64,000 nt of DNA from Williamsia herbipolensis. Lineage in GTDB: Bacteria; Actinomycetota; Actinomycetes; Mycobacteriales; Mycobacteriaceae. Under the pieces are notes generated by a model. The model worked only from the letters and a program-made list of their open reading frames with translations. It made no database searches and was not told the DNA's origin. Positions 4,876-44,666 of the stretch are shown here, piece by piece. Positions within the stretch are counted from its first letter, which is position 1; every line of letters starts with the position of its first letter. The translations under genes and the position numbers were made by a program. The stretch covers positions 1 through 64,000 of the forward strand of contig NZ_JXYP01000012.1 of NCBI RefSeq assembly GCF_000964005.1, in the 5' to 3' direction.

Positions 4876-6021
4876 ATGAGAACAGAATTGACCGAACGCT
4901 TCGGGATCGAGTACCCGATCTTCGGGTTCACCCCATCCGAGCACGTCGCCGCGGCGATCAGTCGCGCCGGTGGCATGGGTGTGCTGGGGTGCGTGCGGTT
5001 CAACGAGGCCGACGAACTCAACCGCGTGCTCGAGTGGATGCACGAGAACACCGACGGCAAGCCGTTCGGCGTCGACATCGTGATGCCGGCCAAGATCCCC
5101 ACCGAGGGAACGCAGGTCGATCTGGACTCGATGATCCCCGACGAGCACCGCGCGTTCGTCGAGCGCACGCTGGACGAACTGAAGGTGCCGCGACTGCCGG
5201 GCGAGGAACGGGTCAACGCCGGCGTCCTCGGGTGGCTGCACTCGGTGGCGCGATCGCATGTGGACATCGCGATGGAGCACGCCGACCGCTACGGCCAGAT
5301 CAAGCTCATCGCCAACGCACTGGGCTCACCGCCCAAGGACGTCATCGACAAATCGCACGACCACGGGGTGTCGGTCGCCGCGTTGGCGGGTGCGAAAGCC
5401 CATGCGCTGCATCACGTCGACGCGGGTGTGGACATCGTCATCGCCCAGGGATACGAGGCGGGCGGCCACACGGGCGAGATCACCTCGATCGTGCTGTGGC
5501 CCGAGATCGTCGACGCGGTCGAGGGCCACGCGTCGGTCCTCGCCGCCGGCGGCGTCGGCAGCGGACGGCAGATGGCCGCCGCACTCGCCTCGGGTGCCCA
5601 GGGTGTGTGGATGGGTTCCTACTGGCTGACCGCGGCCGAGTACCGACTCGGCGCCCACGGAGACGGTCCGACCGTCATCCAGGAGGCGCTGCTCGCCGCG
5701 ACGTCACACGACACGGTGCGCCGCCGCATCTACTCAGGCAAACCCGCGCGCCTGCTCAAGACCAAGTGGACCGACGCCTGGGACGCCGCCGATGCGCCTG
5801 AGCCGCTGCCCATGCCGCTGCAGAACATCCTCGTGAGCGAGGCCCACGCCCGGATCTCGGCTGCCGACGACGCCAGCGTCGTGGCCATGCCGGCGGGTCA
5901 GATCGTGGGGCGGATGAACGCCATCACGCCGGTCGCCGAGCTCATCGACGGACTCGTCGCCGAGTACGAGCAGACCGTGGCGCGCCTGTCGACCACGGTC
6001 GCCGAGCGTTCACCCGCCTGA
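4876..6021 (+). CDS. nitronate monooxygenase-like FMN oxidoreductase
   Basis: A TIM-barrel flavoprotein of 381 residues in the nitronate monooxygenase / 2-nitropropane dioxygenase family. The FMN-binding motif [10 protein letters not shown] (about residues 191-200) and the phosphate-binding stretch [17 protein letters not shown] are present. The ATG is preceded by GAGAGAT. It follows fadD19 by 31 bases and its 3' end overlaps fadD17 by 12 bases, tail to tail. M. tuberculosis has no such gene at this place. The family includes IpdC (Rv3553), which works on steroid C/D rings, so a steroid role is reasonable here, but the sequence cannot separate it from a detoxifying nitronate oxidase. Substrate unknown. 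Confidence 0.82.
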
Positions 6022-7545
6022 CGGGTGGTAGCGGCGGGTGCCGCGGTCGAGCGTCCACGTGGGGTCGATCGCGGCACCGGCCAGTTCGCGTTTGAGGACC
6101 TTGAACGTCGCGGTGCGCGGTAGCTCGTCGACGACACAGACGTGGTGGGGCCACTGCTTCGGACCGAGATCGGTCTGGGAGGCCAGGAAATCCGCGAGGT
6201 CGTCGGGGTCGAGCGCGTCGCCCACCAGTGACGCGACGATCTCGTCACCGACGTCGGCGCCCACGCCGTAGACCGCGGCCAGCCGTATCCGGTCGTGGCG
6301 GAGCAGGATTCGCTCGATCGGTCCGGTGGCCAGGTTCTCGCCGTCGACGCGCACCCAGTCACCGAGGCGGCCGGCGAAGTGGATGAAGCCCGCGGCGTCG
6401 ACCCAGCCGAGATCGCCCGTGTGGTAGATCCCGCCACGCATCCGCTCGTCGGAGGCATCGCGATCTCCGAAATTCCCGGTGAAGAGTCCGGGCCCGGAGG
6501 TGTTGACGATCTCGCCGATCTCGTCTGTGCCGCAGGGTGTCCCGGTCTCGACGTCGACGATGGCGACGGGTGCCACCAGGGGTCCCAGCGCCTCGGGTGG
6601 GGTGTCGGGGGTGCGCGCGATCGCGACGCCACCCTCGGTCGACCCGAAACCGTCGACCACCCTCACCCCGAAGCGACGCTCGAATTCCACGATGTCCCGT
6701 GGGGTTGCCTCGTTGCCGTAGACCACGCGCAGCGGGTTCTCCGCGTCATCGGTCCGCTCGGGGGTGGCGAGGATGTAGCTCAGCGGTTTGCCCACGTAGT
6801 TGGCGTAGGTGACGCCGTAGCGGCGGACGTCGTCGAGGAAGTTGCTCGCCGAGAACCGACGTCGCAGGGCGATCGACGCTCCCGCGGCCACGGCGACGCT
6901 CCACCCGGCGATGATCGCGTTCGAGTGGAACATCGGCATCGACAGGTACACGACGTCGTCGTGACCGAGGTCGAATCGGTCGGCCAGCATCACCCCGGCG
7001 CCGGCGAACTTGCTGTGGTCGCAGCGCACCGCCTTCGGCTCACCGCTGGTCCCCGAGGTGAAGATCAGCATCAGGAGATCCGCGGGCGTCGGTGCGACAC
7101 CACCCCGGTTTGCCGGTGTATCCGCCGCCTGGCGCAGTCGATGCGCCCATGCGGGAGAGCTGATGTCGATGACCGGCACCGACGGACCCAGGTCGATGTC
7201 GCCGAGCAGATGCGCGGTGTCGGGGGAGTGCAGGACGAGCCCGCAGTCGGCGGTCACGATGTCGCGGTGCAGCGCAGCGCCGCGCCGCGTGGTGTTCAGC
7301 CCGACCAGCACCAGGCCGTCGAGGGCGGCCGCACAGAGCAACAGTCCGAACTCGGGCACGTTGTCGAGCAACACGGCGACATGCGGCGGTCCATACGGGT
7401 CGAGACGCGCCCGCACCGCGCGCGACCACACGCGTGCCTGCGCGAGATGGTCACGCCACGAGGTGAACTCGCCCTCGAACCAGACGCCCGAGGACTCCGT
7501 GTCGGCGAGCGGCGCGAGGAGGTCGGCGATGGTGGGCGTGGTCAG
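6010..7545 (-). CDS. fadD17: steroid side-chain acyl-CoA synthetase, apparent CTG start
   Basis: An adenylate-forming CoA ligase of about 511 residues, homologous to M. tuberculosis FadD17 (Rv3506). Shared segments are FTSWRDH, FTSGTSGEPKAV, the YANYVGKPLSY stretch, DGFGSTEGGVAI and the C-terminal TFKVLKREL with the catalytic Lys. The characterised homologue activates steroid acids with shortened side chains. The N-terminal homology begins right after the fadE27 stop. No in-frame ATG, GTG or TTG exists there, or for more than 20 codons before. The only start at the right place is CTG, overlapping the fadE27 TGA as CTGA, so translation is probably coupled. The next GTG, about 40 codons in, would remove conserved sequence. 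Likely one operon fadE26-fadE27-fadD17, as in Mtb. Confidence 0.88.
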   Translation of the reverse strand: MTTPTIADLLAPLADTESSGVWFEGEFTSWRDHLAQARVWSRAVRARLDPYGPPHVAVLLDNVPEFGLLLCAAALDGLVLVGLNTTRRGAALHRDIVTADCGLVLHSPDTAHLLGDIDLGPSVPVIDISSPAWAHRLRQAADTPANRGGVAPTPADLLMLIFTSGTSGEPKAVRCDHSKFAGAGVMLADRFDLGHDDVVYLSMPMFHSNAIIAGWSVAVAAGASIALRRRFSASNFLDDVRRYGVTYANYVGKPLSYILATPERTDDAENPLRVVYGNEATPRDIVEFERRFGVRVVDGFGSTEGGVAIARTPDTPPEALGPLVAPVAIVDVETGTPCGTDEIGEIVNTSGPGLFTGNFGDRDASDERMRGGIYHTGDLGWVDAAGFIHFAGRLGDWVRVDGENLATGPIERILLRHDRIRLAAVYGVGADVGDEIVASLVGDALDPDDLADFLASQTDLGPKQWPHHVCVVDELPRTATFKVLKRELAGAAIDPTWTLDRGTRRYHPSGG

Positions 7546-8648
7546 GCCGGCTCCGCCGCCAGGACGTGACCGATGCGTCGCAGCGCCGCGGTGGCCGAGC
7601 CGAGCGCGAACTCGTTCTGCTTGGCCCGCAGGAAGTAGCGGTGCAGCGGGTGGCTGGTGTCGATCCCGACACCGCCGTGGACGTGGACCGCGGTGTGCGC
7701 CACCCGGTGTCCGGCGTCGGCGGCCCAGAACTTCGCCGTGGCGAGCTCGGTCTCGGCGGGCAGTCCCTCGCCGACGAGGTACGCCGCCTGCACGACGGTC
7801 AGCTTCGCCGCCCGCACGTCGATGTAGGCATCGGCGAGACGCTGCGCGACGGCCTGGAACGAGCCGATCGGTCGCCCGAACTGGGTGCGTTCCCGGCCGT
7901 AGGCGGCGGTGAGGTCGAGTGCGCCTGCGACGACACCGGCCTGTTCGGCGCACTGCGCCAACGTCATACGGTCCACCAGCGCCACCACGGCCTCACGCCG
8001 ACCCAGGACCGCGTCGTCGCCGAGGGTGACATCGGCGAACTCGATCAACGCCGTCGGGACCAGACCTGTCGTGCGCGCCGCACTGATCGTCACGCCCGGT
8101 GCGTCGGTCGGCACGACGAGCGCGACGAGGCCGTCGTCGCTCGATGCGGTGACGATGACCGCCGCGGCGGTCTCGGCGAACGGCACCGACACCTTGCACC
8201 CGTCGATCACCCACCGGTCGCCGTCGCCGCGGGCCGAGGTCGTCGGGGCCAGGGGATCGTCGGCGAGCTCGTCGTCGATCGCGACGGTCACCACGGCGGT
8301 CCCGTCGCACATACCGCTCAGCCAGCGGTCGGCGAGTGCGCCGCCGGCGGCCGCCACCGCGGGCAGCGCCGCGATCGAATGCGGACCGAACGGGACCACG
8401 GCGAGGTGCCGGCCCAGTTCCTCGGCGACCGCGACGTTCTCGGCCGCACCCAGTCCGGCACCCCCGGCGTCCTCGGTCGCCTCCAGGGCGAGGAGTCCGG
8501 CGTCGGCGAGTGCGCGCCACAACTGCTCGTCGACCGCGGCGCCCGAGGTCTCGAGCTCGGCGATCCGTTCAGGGGTCGAGATCTTCGCCGCGATGTCGCG
8601 GGCGAGACCGGTGAGATCGGTACTCGCCTCGGTGGGTCGGAAATCCAT
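7542..8648 (-). CDS. fadE27: acyl-CoA dehydrogenase subunit FadE27 (ChsE5)
   Basis: An acyl-CoA dehydrogenase-fold protein of 368 residues. It has the N-terminal alpha domain, the central beta domain and the C-terminal helices with RTQFGRPIGSFQAVAQRLAD and VHGGVGIDTSHPLHRYFLRA. In M. tuberculosis FadE26 and FadE27 form an alpha2beta2 flavoenzyme (ChsE4-ChsE5) that starts beta-oxidation of the cholesterol side chain, with FAD and active site shared between subunits. Gene order and homology support the same pairing. It begins 25 bases after fadE26 ends, and its stop overlaps the CTG of fadD17. Confidence 0.9.
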   Translation of the reverse strand: MDFRPTEASTDLTGLARDIAAKISTPERIAELETSGAAVDEQLWRALADAGLLALEATEDAGGAGLGAAENVAVAEELGRHLAVVPFGPHSIAALPAVAAAGGALADRWLSGMCDGTAVVTVAIDDELADDPLAPTTSARGDGDRWVIDGCKVSVPFAETAAAVIVTASSDDGLVALVVPTDAPGVTISAARTTGLVPTALIEFADVTLGDDAVLGRREAVVALVDRMTLAQCAEQAGVVAGALDLTAAYGRERTQFGRPIGSFQAVAQRLADAYIDVRAAKLTVVQAAYLVGEGLPAETELATAKFWAADAGHRVAHTAVHVHGGVGIDTSHPLHRYFLRAKQNEFALGSATAALRRIGHVLAAEPA

Positions 8649-25748: not shown

Positions 25749-26252
25749 TCAGCGGACCATGCGTATCTCGGCGACGTTCCATCGCTCGAACCATCCGGCA
25801 GTGCCGTCCTCGGCGAAGCCATGCTTGCGGTAGAACGCGATGGCGCGCGCGTTGTCCGTCAGCACCCACAGCTGCGCCGGCCGGTCGCCGAGGGCTTTGT
25901 CGAGAAGCGCGCCACCGAGACCGGTCCCATGTGTTCGCGCCAGCGTGTAGAGGCCTCGCAACTCGATATCCCTCACGCGTTCGCTACGGGGTGGTCCAGT
26001 TGTGGCGAATCCAACGATGCTCTTGTCGACCTCGGCCACGTGCGTGGTCATTCCAGGGGTGGGGTCGGTGCGAAGCGCTCGTGTCCAGAGCTCGCGACGT
26101 TCGGCGACGTCGAAGGTCGCTGCGGCCTCGGGGGCGACGAGGTCGGTGTAGGCCTCCCGCCACGAGGCGACGTGCACCTCGGCGAGCTGTTCTGCATCGG
26201 TCGGCTCAGCGCGGCGCAGGGTGAACGCCGGCGGCCGTTCGAGGTGACTCAG
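25749..26252 (-). CDS. GNAT acetyltransferase, apparent CTG start
   Basis: A GCN5-related N-acetyltransferase of about 167 residues. It opens with FTLRRAEPTDAEQLAEVHVASWREAY, has the acetyl-CoA loop RTHGTGLGGALLD, and ends with ARAIAFYRKHGFAEDG. This is the RimI/YhhY-like shape; the substrate is unknown. The domain begins directly after the mhuD stop and no ATG, GTG or TTG lies in frame there. The only start in place is CTG overlapping the mhuD TGA (CTGA). The next in-frame GTG would remove the first strand and helix. Probably translationally coupled to mhuD. Confidence 0.8.
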   Translation of the reverse strand: MSHLERPPAFTLRRAEPTDAEQLAEVHVASWREAYTDLVAPEAAATFDVAERRELWTRALRTDPTPGMTTHVAEVDKSIVGFATTGPPRSERVRDIELRGLYTLARTHGTGLGGALLDKALGDRPAQLWVLTDNARAIAFYRKHGFAEDGTAGWFERWNVAEIRMVR

Positions 26253-26554
26253 CTGGGCCTGGCGTCGAGGACGACCTCGAACTCGAGCAGGTCGGCGCCG
26301 CTCGACACCGGGTTCGCGCGCTCGCCGGCGTGGGCCGCGCGAGCGGGTCCGCCCGACCACGCCTCGAACGCCTCGTCGGACTCCCACTGCGTCACCACGA
26401 AGTAGCGGTCCTCGCCCTTCACCGGGCGCAGCAGCTGGAAGCCGAGGAAGCCCGGCGTCCCGTCGACGGTGTGTGCTCGGTTGGCGAACCGCTTCTCGAG
26501 CTCGGGTCCGGCGCCCTCGGGCACCGATATCGCGTTGATCTTCACCACGGCCAT
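26249..26554 (-). CDS. mhuD: haem-degrading monooxygenase MhuD
   Basis: An ABM-fold (IsdG-like) haem oxygenase of 101 residues. It matches M. tuberculosis MhuD (Rv3592) nearly throughout: VVKINAI at the N-terminus, GFLGFQLLRPVKGE, and ANPV...LLEFEVVLD at the end. The catalytic residues known for MhuD are all present: Asn7, Trp66 and His75. MhuD opens haem to mycobilins and releases iron without CO. The ATG (CATGG) overlaps the start region of the divergent hydrolase gene. A -10 on its strand (TACGAT, 26562-26567) is seven bases before the ATG, so the transcript is probably leaderless. The GNAT gene is coupled downstream. Confidence 0.93.
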   Translation of the reverse strand: MAVVKINAISVPEGAGPELEKRFANRAHTVDGTPGFLGFQLLRPVKGEDRYFVVTQWESDEAFEAWSGGPARAAHAGERANPVSSGADLLEFEVVLDARPS

Positions 26555-41623: not shown

Positions 41624-42346
41624 CTATGCCGCAGTCAGTGTCGAGGCGATGGTGATGATCTCGGGACTCTCCGGTGTGACGGGACTCCGACCCCAGTTGC
41701 CGAACTGTTCCTCGATCACCAGGCCGGCCGACCTCAGGGCGGTCGACAGGTTGTCGACCGTCAGGAACCGAAGAGCAGAGCGAACAACCTTCTGCTCCGA
41801 CAACGTCGGGATGGAGAAAGTCTCGTCGAACGTCACGATCTGATCGTGCACCGACACCACCTCGCGTGTCACCGTGAGAGTGTCGCCGCGGTCATCGGTG
41901 ACCGTGAACTCTTCGTCCCACCGGGTCCACGGTTGCACCACCGGGTTCCTCGTCTCGAACGCGAAACGACCTCCTGCAGCCATGGAGCCGACGATCGCAC
42001 GCAGCGACGACGTGAGATCGTCGTCGCTCGCCAGCGTCTGGAACGCGTGACCGGTCATGGTGACGAGATCGGCCGCCACGCCGCTCACGTCGGAAGCGGT
42101 TGCGGTCTGCCACTCGATGTCATCGCGGCGGCGGGCCACGGCGAGCATGTCGTGATCGGGATCGATACCGATGAGCCGCCCGCGGTGCCCGGTCTCGCGT
42201 GCACGGTGTAGCAGTGTGCCGGTACCGCAACCGATGTCGACCACGGTCTCGACGTGCATCACGAGATCTAGGTACAAGTCGTCGCTGCGGCCCCACGGGT
42301 TCAGAACGTCGTACCACGCGGCGACGGTGGAGCGCTTCGTCGTCAG
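41624..42346 (-). CDS. class I SAM-dependent methyltransferase, apparent CTG start
   Basis: A methyltransferase of about 240 residues. Motif I is VVDIGCGTGTLLHRA (about 35-49), followed by IGIDPDHDML and GGRFAFETRNP. The family begins with a segment like STVAAWYDVLNPWG, which lies right after the stop of the upstream acyl-CoA synthetase. No ATG, GTG or TTG is in frame there; CTG overlaps the upstream TGA (CTGA). It is the third gene of a pxpA-fadD-methyltransferase operon. Substrate unknown. Confidence 0.78.
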   Translation of the reverse strand: MTTKRSTVAAWYDVLNPWGRSDDLYLDLVMHVETVVDIGCGTGTLLHRARETGHRGRLIGIDPDHDMLAVARRRDDIEWQTATASDVSGVAADLVTMTGHAFQTLASDDDLTSSLRAIVGSMAAGGRFAFETRNPVVQPWTRWDEEFTVTDDRGDTLTVTREVVSVHDQIVTFDETFSIPTLSEQKVVRSALRFLTVDNLSTALRSAGLVIEEQFGNWGRSPVTPESPEIITIASTLTAA

Positions 42347-43896
42347 CGGGCGGCCCGCTCGGCGTCCCGGAGTTCGTTCTTGCGGACCTTGCCGGTGGAG
42401 GTGCGGGGGATGGCGTCGGTGAACTCGATGTCGCGGGGCGCCTTGAACGAGGCGAGGAGCGTCTTCACGTGCGCGGTGAGTTCTGCGGCCTCGACCGAGG
42501 CGCCATCGGTCAGGACCACGAACGCCTTCGGGCGTTCGCCCCACTTGTCGTCGGCGACACCGATGACGACGACGTCGGCGACGGCGGGGTGGCTGGCGAG
42601 GGCCTGTTCGACCTCGATGGTGGAGATGTTCTCGCCACCGGAGATGACCACGTCCTTCGCCCGGTCGAGCAACTTCACGTAGCCGTCGGGGCGCATCACC
42701 CCGAGATCTCCGCTGTGGAACCAGCCGCCGGCGAAGGCCTCGGCGGTCGCGTCGTCATCGGCGAAATAGCCCTTCATGACGCAGTTCCCGCGCATGACGA
42801 TCTCGCCCATCTCGACTCCGTCGGGCTCGACATCGACGAGCGAACCGTCGTCGGCGGCGTCGGGGCGCACCACGCGCAGCCGGTCGGCGGTCACCATCCC
42901 CACGCCCTGCCGTGACATCACGACGTTGAGCTCGTCGGAGTCGAGGTCGGCCCACGAATCCTGCGGCTCACAGATCGAGTACGGACCGTAGGTCTCGGTG
43001 AGTCCGTAGACGTGCACGAGAGTGGCACCGAGGGAACGGATCTGGCCCACCACGGTCGGCGAGGGCGGTGCCCCGGCGGTCACGACGGTCAGCGGTCCCT
43101 CGAGCTGGTGGGCTTCGGGTGCGGTCGCCAGAGTCGACAGAACGGTGGGCGCACCACACATGTGGTCGACGCCCTCGGTGTCGATGAGTCGCCAGATGTC
43201 GTCGCCGCGCACCGCGCGCAGGCAGATGTGCCGACCGGCCACCGCGGTCACCGCCCACGTGGTGCACCAGCCGTTGCAGTGGAACATCGGCAACGTCCAC
43301 AGGTAGCGACTCGCGTGCTCGAAGCCCTGATGCACCACCTCGGCCAGCGCGTTCAGGTAGGCACCGCGGTGGGTGTACATCACGCCCTTCGGACGGCCTG
43401 TGGTCCCGGAGGTGTAGTTGATGGTGATCGTCGCGGTCTCGTCGTCCACCTCCCAGGGCAGCGCTGCTCCGTCACCGCGGGCCAGGAACGCGTCGTACCC
43501 CGAATCGAGGTCGATCACCTCGTCGACGGACAGATCCGCGAGCGGTGCGAGCAGGTCGGATTCGCCGATGAGGATCTTCGCGCCCGAGTGCTCGCAGATG
43601 TAGGCGATCTCGTCGGGCGACAGGCGGGTGTTCACCGCGACGAGGACCGCGCCCGCGAGGGGCACACCGAAGTGGGCGATCAGCAGCTCGGCGCGATTGG
43701 TGGCGAGGAACGCCACCCGTTCGCCGGCAGCGACACCCGAGGCACGCACCGCCGCGGCGAGCGACTGCGCCGCATCGGCGAACTCGCGGTTGGTCATCCG
43801 GCGGTCACCGTCGACGATCCCGATCGCGTCGGGGTGCACCTCGGCGGCACGCTCGAGGAACCGTAGTGGGGTCAGGGGTGTGTCGAGACCGGCCAT
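42343..43896 (-). CDS. acyl-CoA synthetase (medium-chain/AlkK-like)
   Basis: An adenylate-forming ligase of 517 residues. ATP motif INYTSGTTGRPKGVMYTH (about 170), motif VYGLTETYGP, GWFHSGDLGV, and the C-terminal catalytic Lys in TSTGKVRKNEL are present. The family includes AlkK-type fatty acid and 3-methylmercaptopropionyl-CoA ligases (WTLPMFHCNGW and SGGENIS are typical). ATG overlaps the pxpA stop by one base (TGATG). The substrate cannot be fixed from sequence. Confidence 0.87.
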   Translation of the reverse strand: MAGLDTPLTPLRFLERAAEVHPDAIGIVDGDRRMTNREFADAAQSLAAAVRASGVAAGERVAFLATNRAELLIAHFGVPLAGAVLVAVNTRLSPDEIAYICEHSGAKILIGESDLLAPLADLSVDEVIDLDSGYDAFLARGDGAALPWEVDDETATITINYTSGTTGRPKGVMYTHRGAYLNALAEVVHQGFEHASRYLWTLPMFHCNGWCTTWAVTAVAGRHICLRAVRGDDIWRLIDTEGVDHMCGAPTVLSTLATAPEAHQLEGPLTVVTAGAPPSPTVVGQIRSLGATLVHVYGLTETYGPYSICEPQDSWADLDSDELNVVMSRQGVGMVTADRLRVVRPDAADDGSLVDVEPDGVEMGEIVMRGNCVMKGYFADDDATAEAFAGGWFHSGDLGVMRPDGYVKLLDRAKDVVISGGENISTIEVEQALASHPAVADVVVIGVADDKWGERPKAFVVLTDGASVEAAELTAHVKTLLASFKAPRDIEFTDAIPRTSTGKVRKNELRDAERAAR

Positions 43897-44666
43897 CACG
43901 TCACTCTAGCGACGGTGACACCCTGCTCACGCAGGGTTGCGGCGACCGCTCGCGCGTGATCGACCGCGCCGGGGGTGTCGCCGTGCAGACACAGCGTCGA
44001 CGGTGCGACCGCCACGATCATGCCGTCGTCGGCGACGACCTCGTGGTCGACGACCATCCGGAGCGCCCGCGCGCAGATCGTGGCGGTGTCGGTGATGACC
44101 GCTCCCGGTTCGGACCGCGGGACCAGCGAGCCGTCAGGGCGGTAGGCGCGGTCGGCGAAGGCCTCGGCGACGGTGGCCAGCCCCGCGGCCTCCGCCAGCC
44201 GCGCGGACACCGATCCGGGCAGCCCGTACAGCGGCAGATCGCGGTTCAGCGCGACGACGGCATCGACCACCGCCAGGGCCTGAGCCCGGTGGGAGACTAT
44301 GCTGTTGTACAGCGCCCCATGCGGTTTGACGTAGGAGACGGCGCCGCCGACCGAGCGCGCGATGCCGTCGAGGGCGCCGATCTGGTAGATCACGTCGGCG
44401 GTGAGATCCCCGGGGGCGATGTCGAGGAAGCGGCGCCCGAAACCGACGCGGTCGGGATAGGACACCTGCGCCCCGATCGCGACCCCGGCCGAGACCGCCG
44501 CGGCGCAGGTCTCCCGCAACGAGGTGGGGTCCCCGGCGTGGAATCCGCAGGCGATGTTGGCGCTCGTGACCACCTCGAGCATCGCGTGGTCGTCCCCGAG
44601 GCGCCACACCCCGTACCCCTCGCCGAGATCGGCGTTGAGATCGACACGGGTGTCCGACGATGTCAT
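43896..44666 (-). CDS. pxpA: LamB/YcsF family, 5-oxoprolinase subunit A
   Basis: A protein of 256 residues with the family opening VDLNADLGEGYGVWRLGDD, then SANIACGFHAGDP, GAQVSYPDRVGFGRR, VKPHGALYN and STLCLHGDTPGA. PxpA works with PxpB and PxpC to hydrolyse 5-oxoproline. Neither partner is in this window; instead a fadD and a methyltransferase follow in the same operon. The ATG at 44666 is seven bases from a -10 (TACCCT on its strand, 44673-44678), so it is probably leaderless. It is divergent from a carboxylesterase gene. Confidence 0.88.
   Translation of the reverse strand: MTSSDTRVDLNADLGEGYGVWRLGDDHAMLEVVTSANIACGFHAGDPTSLRETCAAAVSAGVAIGAQVSYPDRVGFGRRFLDIAPGDLTADVIYQIGALDGIARSVGGAVSYVKPHGALYNSIVSHRAQALAVVDAVVALNRDLPLYGLPGSVSARLAEAAGLATVAEAFADRAYRPDGSLVPRSEPGAVITDTATICARALRMVVDHEVVADDGMIVAVAPSTLCLHGDTPGAVDHARAVAATLREQGVTVARVT

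Follow-up and report, generated by a model that had tools for sequence, protein, structure and literature searches.

A putative CTG start within the fadE27 stop codon of Williamsia herbipolensis and a conserved CTG overlap at a GET3/ArsA-like ATPase gene

The stretch of Williamsia herbipolensis DNA analysed here (the window; 64,000 nucleotides from contig NZ_JXYP01000012.1) carries on its minus strand an acyl-CoA dehydrogenase gene, presumably fadE27 from the gene order, and directly downstream a fadD17-like acyl-CoA ligase gene, for which we propose a CTG start inside the fadE27 stop codon. The last codons of fadE27 are GCC TGA; the final C of GCC and the first two bases of TGA make up a CTG in the fadD17 frame, and the minus strand reads CTGA at 7545-7542. 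The first-pass annotation of the window had described this overlap and had stated that no in-frame ATG, GTG or TTG (hereafter canonical start) lies close to the CTG. Both statements hold, the nearest canonical starts being GTG codons at -408 and +114 nucleotides (nt) relative to the CTG. Upstream of the CTG the fadD17 frame stays open for about 149 codons, is arginine-rich and reads as out-of-frame sequence. A GGAG resembling a Shine-Dalgarno (SD) sequence ends five bases before the CTG, and the SD duplex energy at this site, calculated with an assumed anti-SD sequence, is -5.8. The corresponding means were -5.9 at 113 ATGA junctions, -4.8 at 113 GTGA junctions and -3.2 at 176 close gene pairs in other frames, and the energy before the fadD17 CTG is thus similar to that of ATGA and GTGA junctions. 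The ligase is named fadD17-like because NCBIfam FadD17 (NF005897) is its best match, at 701.6 bits, under the curated cut-off of 850.

When the ligase is read from the CTG, position 1 of the FadD17 model aligns with residue 4 and the Pfam AMP-binding match begins at residue 24, so that a start at codon 38 would truncate the enzyme. The stretch between the upstream stop and the next canonical start had a coding score of +12.0 at fadD17, and of +3.7 and +1.8 at a methyltransferase gene and a GNAT acetyltransferase gene of the window, which show the same arrangement and are treated below. A start-blind coding model, in which starts were free and the stop alone was enforced, located the onset of coding at the upstream stop in each of the three cases. 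This model was trained on composition and its switching costs favour gene-gene contact; its onset at the stop lends weak support to CTG starts, and the stop-to-start coding score is more telling.

The genome, of 4,744,957 bases, belongs to the group of Williamsia maris, W. deligens and W. serinedens, and the junction was compared with those of its relatives. Among the congeners, CTGA is present in this genome and in G005 (locus L002), GTGA is present in G001, G004 and G007 (L005-L007), and G003 and G002 (L003, L004) carry a 13-nt insertion at the junction followed by a new GTG; the eighth genome of the genus, G006, gave no match at E 1e-100 or better. In L003 and L004, a six-codon frame opens at the old CTG and is closed by a TGA overlapping the new fadD17 GTG. 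From the CTG onward, L002-L004 align with our fadD17 without gaps, and our gene is open throughout and 74% identical to that of L002. Taking the best-scoring 110 among the matches listed and removing 16 duplicates left 94 distinct fadD17 loci, and in 92 of these best matches at least one in-frame canonical start lies near the junction, in a region extending 15 nt downstream and either 117 nt upstream or up to the first in-frame stop on that side; the two exceptions are this genome and G005. In the midpoint-rooted protein tree, (own,(G005,(G003,G002))) with supports of 100/100, 100/99 and 93/95, the two species with CTGA do not group as sisters, and the fadD17 CTG therefore looks old. The simplest history would place a CTGA junction in the common ancestor of these four species, with a later GTG in G002 and G003. 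Considering that one synonymous change would create a GTG or ATG, the CTG seems to have been long tolerated or kept. Among the congeners, nonsynonymous differences in fadD17 codons 1-37 were no rarer than elsewhere in the gene, which indicates a less constrained N-terminal stretch. One of the fadD17 loci, L063, comes from a record titled Kitasatospora arboriphila and is 100% identical to that of G108 of the W. muralis group; the record is probably mislabelled.

Four other explanations of the fadD17 junction have to be weighed. Translation could begin at another nearby non-canonical codon, most plausibly the ATC at +15 (the sixth codon), with the loss of five residues. In a random-codon selection in Mycobacterium smegmatis with a consensus SD sequence, ATC came out above background at 0.2% (ATT at 9.8%) while CTG, at 0.03%, was not enriched (PMC4633059, available text), and in some orthologues the junction start, at +9, precedes that Ile by two codons. 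However, the +15 codon encodes Ile or Val and is GTC in L004, the ATC lies about 20 nt from the GGAG, and three congeners carry a GTG at the overlap itself. ATC is also absent among the first 12 codons of the GNAT gene and the first 19 of the methyltransferase gene, and we regard this start as unlikely. Alternatively, the fadD17 start may have been lost in this species, the protein being barely made and the CTG a decaying site, as would suit the inefficiency of CUG (PMC11497404, available text) and the fact that TGA in this genome is preceded by C more often than by any other base. Such decay is hard to reconcile with a CTGA common to two non-sister species and with a gene that is open and retains its identity to L002 over its length, and we give it only a small chance. 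A shorter fadD17 from the GTG at +114 (codon 38 after the CTG) is what a pipeline restricted to ATG, GTG and TTG would call, this being the nearest canonical start; it seems very unlikely in view of the two profile matches above and of the first 37 codons, which align as protein in the congeners and score as coding. Finally, a frameshift at the stop giving a FadE27-FadD17 fusion, or a long extension from the GTG at -408, would fit the open upstream frame and has a parallel in another apparent CTGA junction, C47:94485, that looks like a frame change in a single gene, but is scarcely credible when the fadE27 C-terminus is kept up to the stop in seven species, canonical starts lie near the junction in nearly all orthologues among the best matches, and the upstream frame is out-of-frame-like.

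Based on the junction comparison, the FadD17 model alignment and the coding score, fadD17 translation probably begins at the CUG overlapping the UGA of fadE27, by restart of terminating ribosomes; the CTG start favoured by the first-pass annotation is thus retained. Restart after the upstream stop would be a natural, though for fadD17 putative, mechanism. A ribosome finishing fadE27 would halt with the CUG, which begins one base ahead of the UGA, at or beside its P site, the terminated ribosome would hold its position with the aid of the GGAG, and restart at the CUG would then take place with initiator Met-tRNA at low efficiency. We infer methionine at the CUG, a ribosome coming from fadE27, low output and, if there is one, an effect of initiation factor 3 (IF3).

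The most interesting result of the comparison, and seemingly a stronger case than any site of the window, lies elsewhere in the genome, where a GET3/ArsA-like ATPase gene appears to start with a CTGA overlap on an SRPBCC (Polyketide_cyc2) gene. This overlap is present in 8/8 genomes of the genus. A search of the family gave an ATPase match at E 1e-25 or better in 79 of 121 genomes, and 70 loci were examined; an upstream stop could be assigned for 69 of them, G058 being dropped as it reads CTGATG. The CTGA overlap was found in 61 of the 69 loci and in 22 of 23 genera. The eight remaining loci comprise six from Mycobacterium (genus g29 in these counts, assigned by the nearest named records) and one each from g23 and g20 with GTG or TTG. 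Three of the six Mycobacterium loci have a GTG beyond or over the stop; in the other three the CTG is in frame and the SRPBCC stop is shifted, one of them also having GTG at +17 and +20. When a usable start was sought from 60 nt before the stop to five codons before the P-loop, 47 CTGA loci from 19 genera had no usable ATG, GTG or TTG, and 23 of these 47 have an intact P-loop. In 56 of the 61 loci the CTG follows an SD-like duplex of -5 or better, counted irrespective of spacing.

The base before the SRPBCC TGA is C in 65 of the 69 loci, although the last amino acid of those 65 varies among G, D, R, S and A. The remaining four, all from Mycobacterium, have a shifted gene end that reads GAG TGA. 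In our genome, C ends about half of the GGN, GCN and CGN codons and a larger share of Asp and AGY Ser codons. Given this usage at the wobble position, neutrality is an unlikely explanation for the constancy of C between genera; the genomes are related, and the constancy is accordingly given no exact probability. A second search, restricted to Mycobacterium and counted by hand, gave 21 ATPase loci, six of their genomes being also in the first set. CTG was the sole start far enough upstream of the P-loop in 10 of the 21, nine of which have an 8-nt overlap, CTGAGTGA or CTGACTGA, and one CTGA; GTG or ATG was available in the other 11. In six ATPase loci from outside the family, ATG or GTG was available in 6/6.

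For the ATPase itself, protein P0005 passes TIGR00345 GET3/ArsA (152 against a cut-off of 135), and P0004 fails it (30.9) and passes Pfam ArsA_ATPase and ArsA_HSP20. The name bagA was rejected, the scores of P0005 being far under the cut-offs of BagA and BagB (NCBIfam NF053622 and NF053621; 67.5 of 400 and 51.2 of 521), and a DUF4177 label for the upstream gene was likewise wrong. The ATPase/SRPBCC pair may correspond to Rv2184c/Rv2185c, two names that occurred together in none of the papers searched. A plasmid search with the ATPase returned one partial match with no feature under it. The Walker A motif departs from GKGGxG[KR][ST] in six genera (our own group, the W. muralis group, Gordonia and three more), being for example GPGGAGVST in our ATPase; the remaining genera with the CTGA overlap fit the pattern.

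A broader reading, which we hold as a serious but tentative possibility, is that selection has maintained the CTG of stop-start overlaps as an ancient initiation signal in the family, and that it is not a degraded ATG or GTG, fadD17 of the Williamsia group being a younger instance of the same device. Because the C before TGA at the SRPBCC/ATPase junction is constant while the encoded amino acid varies, it would be the CTG itself that is kept under this selected-signal reading, and a weak, IF3-sensitive restart would perhaps set a low ratio of the ATPase to its upstream partner. CUG is regarded as a nearly inert bacterial start. If a CTG start at a stop codon has indeed been kept across most genera of a family, restarting ribosomes would be able to use codons that are rejected by free 30S subunits, or, alternatively, weak starts would be selected to set protein ratios. 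Gene finders limited to ATG, GTG and TTG would mis-start such genes.

How common such starts are was assessed in a sample of 1,644,376 of the 4,744,957 bases (35%), the window included, which contained 1,380 genes and 572 pairs of close neighbours on the same strand. A TGA stop in the four-base-overlap frame was present in 340 pairs, namely GTGA 142, ATGA 137, CTGA 57 and TTGA 4. Among the 57 CTGA pairs, 27 are CTGATG, in reality a 1-nt TGATG overlap, and in another 16 a canonical start follows at +6 to +24. The 14 left consist of seven with a coding onset 34-60 nt past the stop, two with ordinary starts, one apparent frame change inside a single gene and four likely CTG starts. The two with ordinary starts, C1:342980 and C47:22168, were rejected as CTG starts because an ATG or GTG start lies behind a stretch that scores as non-coding. 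C47:94485 was rejected as well; its gene, a regulator (SARP/BTAD-like by eye), shows an apparent CTGA overlap that is a warning for automatic overlap counts. The four likely CTG starts are the three of the window and that of the ATPase at C1:182073. They amount to 4 of 287 four-base overlaps (1.4%) in the sample, and only one lies outside the window, in 1.58 Mb, so that they are about 70 times denser in the window than in the remaining sample.

The base before TGA in close pairs of other frames (n=176) is C in 114, G in 43, A in 12 and T in 7, so that CTGA by itself is common. The ratio of use as an overlap start to availability was 11.4 for ATG, 3.3 for GTG, 0.57 for TTG and 0.035 for CTG; corrected for availability, CTG is used about 94-fold less than GTG. 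The suggestion of the first-pass annotation that coupled CUG initiation is a normal mode here is not borne out by these figures. Orphans, meaning junctions where coding sets in at the stop and the interval from -30 to +24 has no canonical start, numbered 22, of which 6 were CTGA and 16 had other frames or stops; by the same rule, 0 of 14 CTGA pairs were orphans in 400 kb of G003. Given these controls, orphan junctions alone do not prove CTG use, and it is the comparison with relatives that carries the argument. The gene at C23:207677 has a coding onset right past the upstream stop and no ATG, GTG or TTG from -172 to +83, possibly owing to a sequence error. CTG restart at overlaps is rare but probably does occur, and in some cases it has persisted over very long times; the GET3/ArsA-like ATPase behind its SRPBCC gene is the best example across the family.

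Several points weigh against CTG initiation at these overlaps. According to the available text of the papers concerned, CUG initiates at 0.86% of AUG and makes up 0.024% of bacterial starts (PMC11497404, the latter figure citing another study), and Ribo-RET in M. tuberculosis gave no CTG enrichment (PMC9094748), which joins the lack of enrichment in the M. smegmatis selection above. In our own data, the single synonymous change of GCC to GCG or GCA that would turn the fadD17 CTG into GTG or ATG is absent, and a canonical start is also available in 14 of the 61 CTGA ATPase loci, 27-96 nt downstream in 13 and 12 nt upstream in one. The onset of the start-blind model is imprecise, as 56 of the 1,380 genes have no canonical start within 45 nt of it, 41 of them having one 46-105 nt upstream. 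The six codons before the fadE27 stop are identical, but a run of seven such codons occurs elsewhere in fadE27, and synonymous conservation of this tail was dropped as SD evidence, not being exceptional within the gene. When the orphan limit was widened to +60, 3 of 57 CTGA pairs were orphans against 3 of 232 other pairs (one of the latter being a weak gene call and one having a GTG at -34). Orphans are slightly commoner at CTGA, but not clearly so (Fisher p 0.09).

The two other CTGA sites to which the first-pass annotation had pointed have the same arrangement as fadD17: in both, the TGA is the upstream stop and the CTG is in the downstream frame (Table 1). The nearest in-frame canonical starts lie at -198 and +69 nt for the methyltransferase gene and at -108 and +75 nt for the GNAT gene. 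Among 251 family genomes, the methyltransferase had a single relative at E 1e-40 or better, in G005; it follows the same upstream gene, whose end AGG TGA gives GTGA at the homologous place, and this copy (L135) is broken by a deletion and a frame change just past the N-terminus. The GNAT relative in G005 aligns only from residue 12, near a second in-frame CTG at +33, with no homologous N-terminus at the first CTG, and has an ATG of its own 52 nt beyond the monooxygenase stop. The earlier claim that conserved sequence begins at the overlap thus stands for fadD17, through the model alignment from residue 4 and the gap-free L002-L004, may apply to the methyltransferase, indirectly, through one broken relative with GTGA, and does not extend to the GNAT gene. 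Judged by sequence comparison, the methyltransferase is a fair candidate for a CTG start and the GNAT gene a weak one.

Table 1. Positions of the genes and overlaps discussed, in window coordinates unless a contig is named
Feature	Position	Strand	Basis or remark
CTGA overlap, fadE27/fadD17	7542..7545	minus	CTG 7545-7543, proposed fadD17 start; TGA 7544-7542, fadE27 stop; sequence and orthologous junctions
fadD17-like acyl-CoA ligase, 511 amino acids counted from CTG	6010..7545	minus	Pfam AMP-binding; NCBIfam NF005897 FadD17
fadE27-like acyl-CoA dehydrogenase, ATG start, C-terminus ...LAAEPA*	7542..8648	minus	Pfam acyl-CoA dehydrogenase domains
GGAG, SD-like, 5 nt upstream of fadD17 CTG	7551..7554	minus	sequence
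CTGA overlap, GNAT gene	26249..26252	minus	CTG 26252-26250; weakest case; second in-frame CTG at +33
GNAT acetyltransferase, 167 amino acids counted from CTG	25749..26252	minus	Pfam
ABM monooxygenase-like gene, upstream of GNAT gene	26249..26554	minus	Pfam PF03992
CTGA overlap, methyltransferase gene	42343..42346	minus	CTG 42346-42344; GTGA in relative G005
S-adenosylmethionine (SAM) methyltransferase, 240 amino acids counted from CTG	41624..42346	minus	Pfam Methyltransf_25
Acyl-CoA synthetase, upstream of methyltransferase gene	42343..43899	minus	Pfam AMP-binding
GET3/ArsA-like ATPase, putative CTGA start over SRPBCC gene (outside the window)	own C1:180904-182073 (L149:904-2073)	minus	relatives L240-L247, L272-L333

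Comparisons with known systems refer to the available text of the papers cited. Termination-reinitiation at short overlaps has been reported for pairs of the ATGA/GTGA type (PMC6728339; PMC10666635). As in those pairs, the genes are on the same strand, the overlap is 4 nt and the restart codon shares bases with the UGA; the fadD17 junction is such an overlap if the CTG is its start, as we infer. The 8-nt overlap class ATGNNTGA (PMC10666635) is matched by CTGAGTGA and CTGACTGA in the Mycobacterium ATPase loci. The restart codon here is CTG, whereas the papers name ATGA and TGATG, or ATGA/GTGA for the 4-nt class. The RTGA 'coupled' small open reading frames of mycobacteria (PMC4633059) also have the TGA of one frame within the next start, but are defined with ATG or GTG, and CTG was not enriched in the reporter of that study. 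Non-canonical starts missed by annotation are known from Streptomyces sigR (GTC) and infC (ATC; PMC5472188), and the polyprenyl synthetase of M. smegmatis provides a case with the same codon, a CTG start that is supported by N-terminomics and had been missed by annotation (PMC9597629). In the available accounts, the starts of sigR, infC and the polyprenyl synthetase are not described as lying within a stop codon, whereas our CTG overlaps one, and IF3 control, demonstrated for sigR (PMC5472188), is only putative for fadD17. A conserved CTG start inside a stop codon was not named in the titles and abstract openings of the literature searched. Switches to CUG between close genomes were counted at 2 of 61,358 from AUG, 1 of 5,080 from GUG and 1 of 2,468 from UUG (PMC5622118).

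The polyprenyl synthetase CTG, preceded by GAAAGGGG, was found in 7/7 Mycobacterium genomes examined (L379, L382-L387). A GTG at +6 is also present in three of the seven, and a GTG of this kind was the previously annotated start (PMC9597629, available text). The nearest homologues in our genome and in one Gordonia are 47-49% identical and have an ATG or GTG available. In G057 the polyprenyl synthetase gene lies about 9 kb from the ATPase gene, and the distance to the ATPase gene is about 14 kb for our homologue, which has canonical starts.

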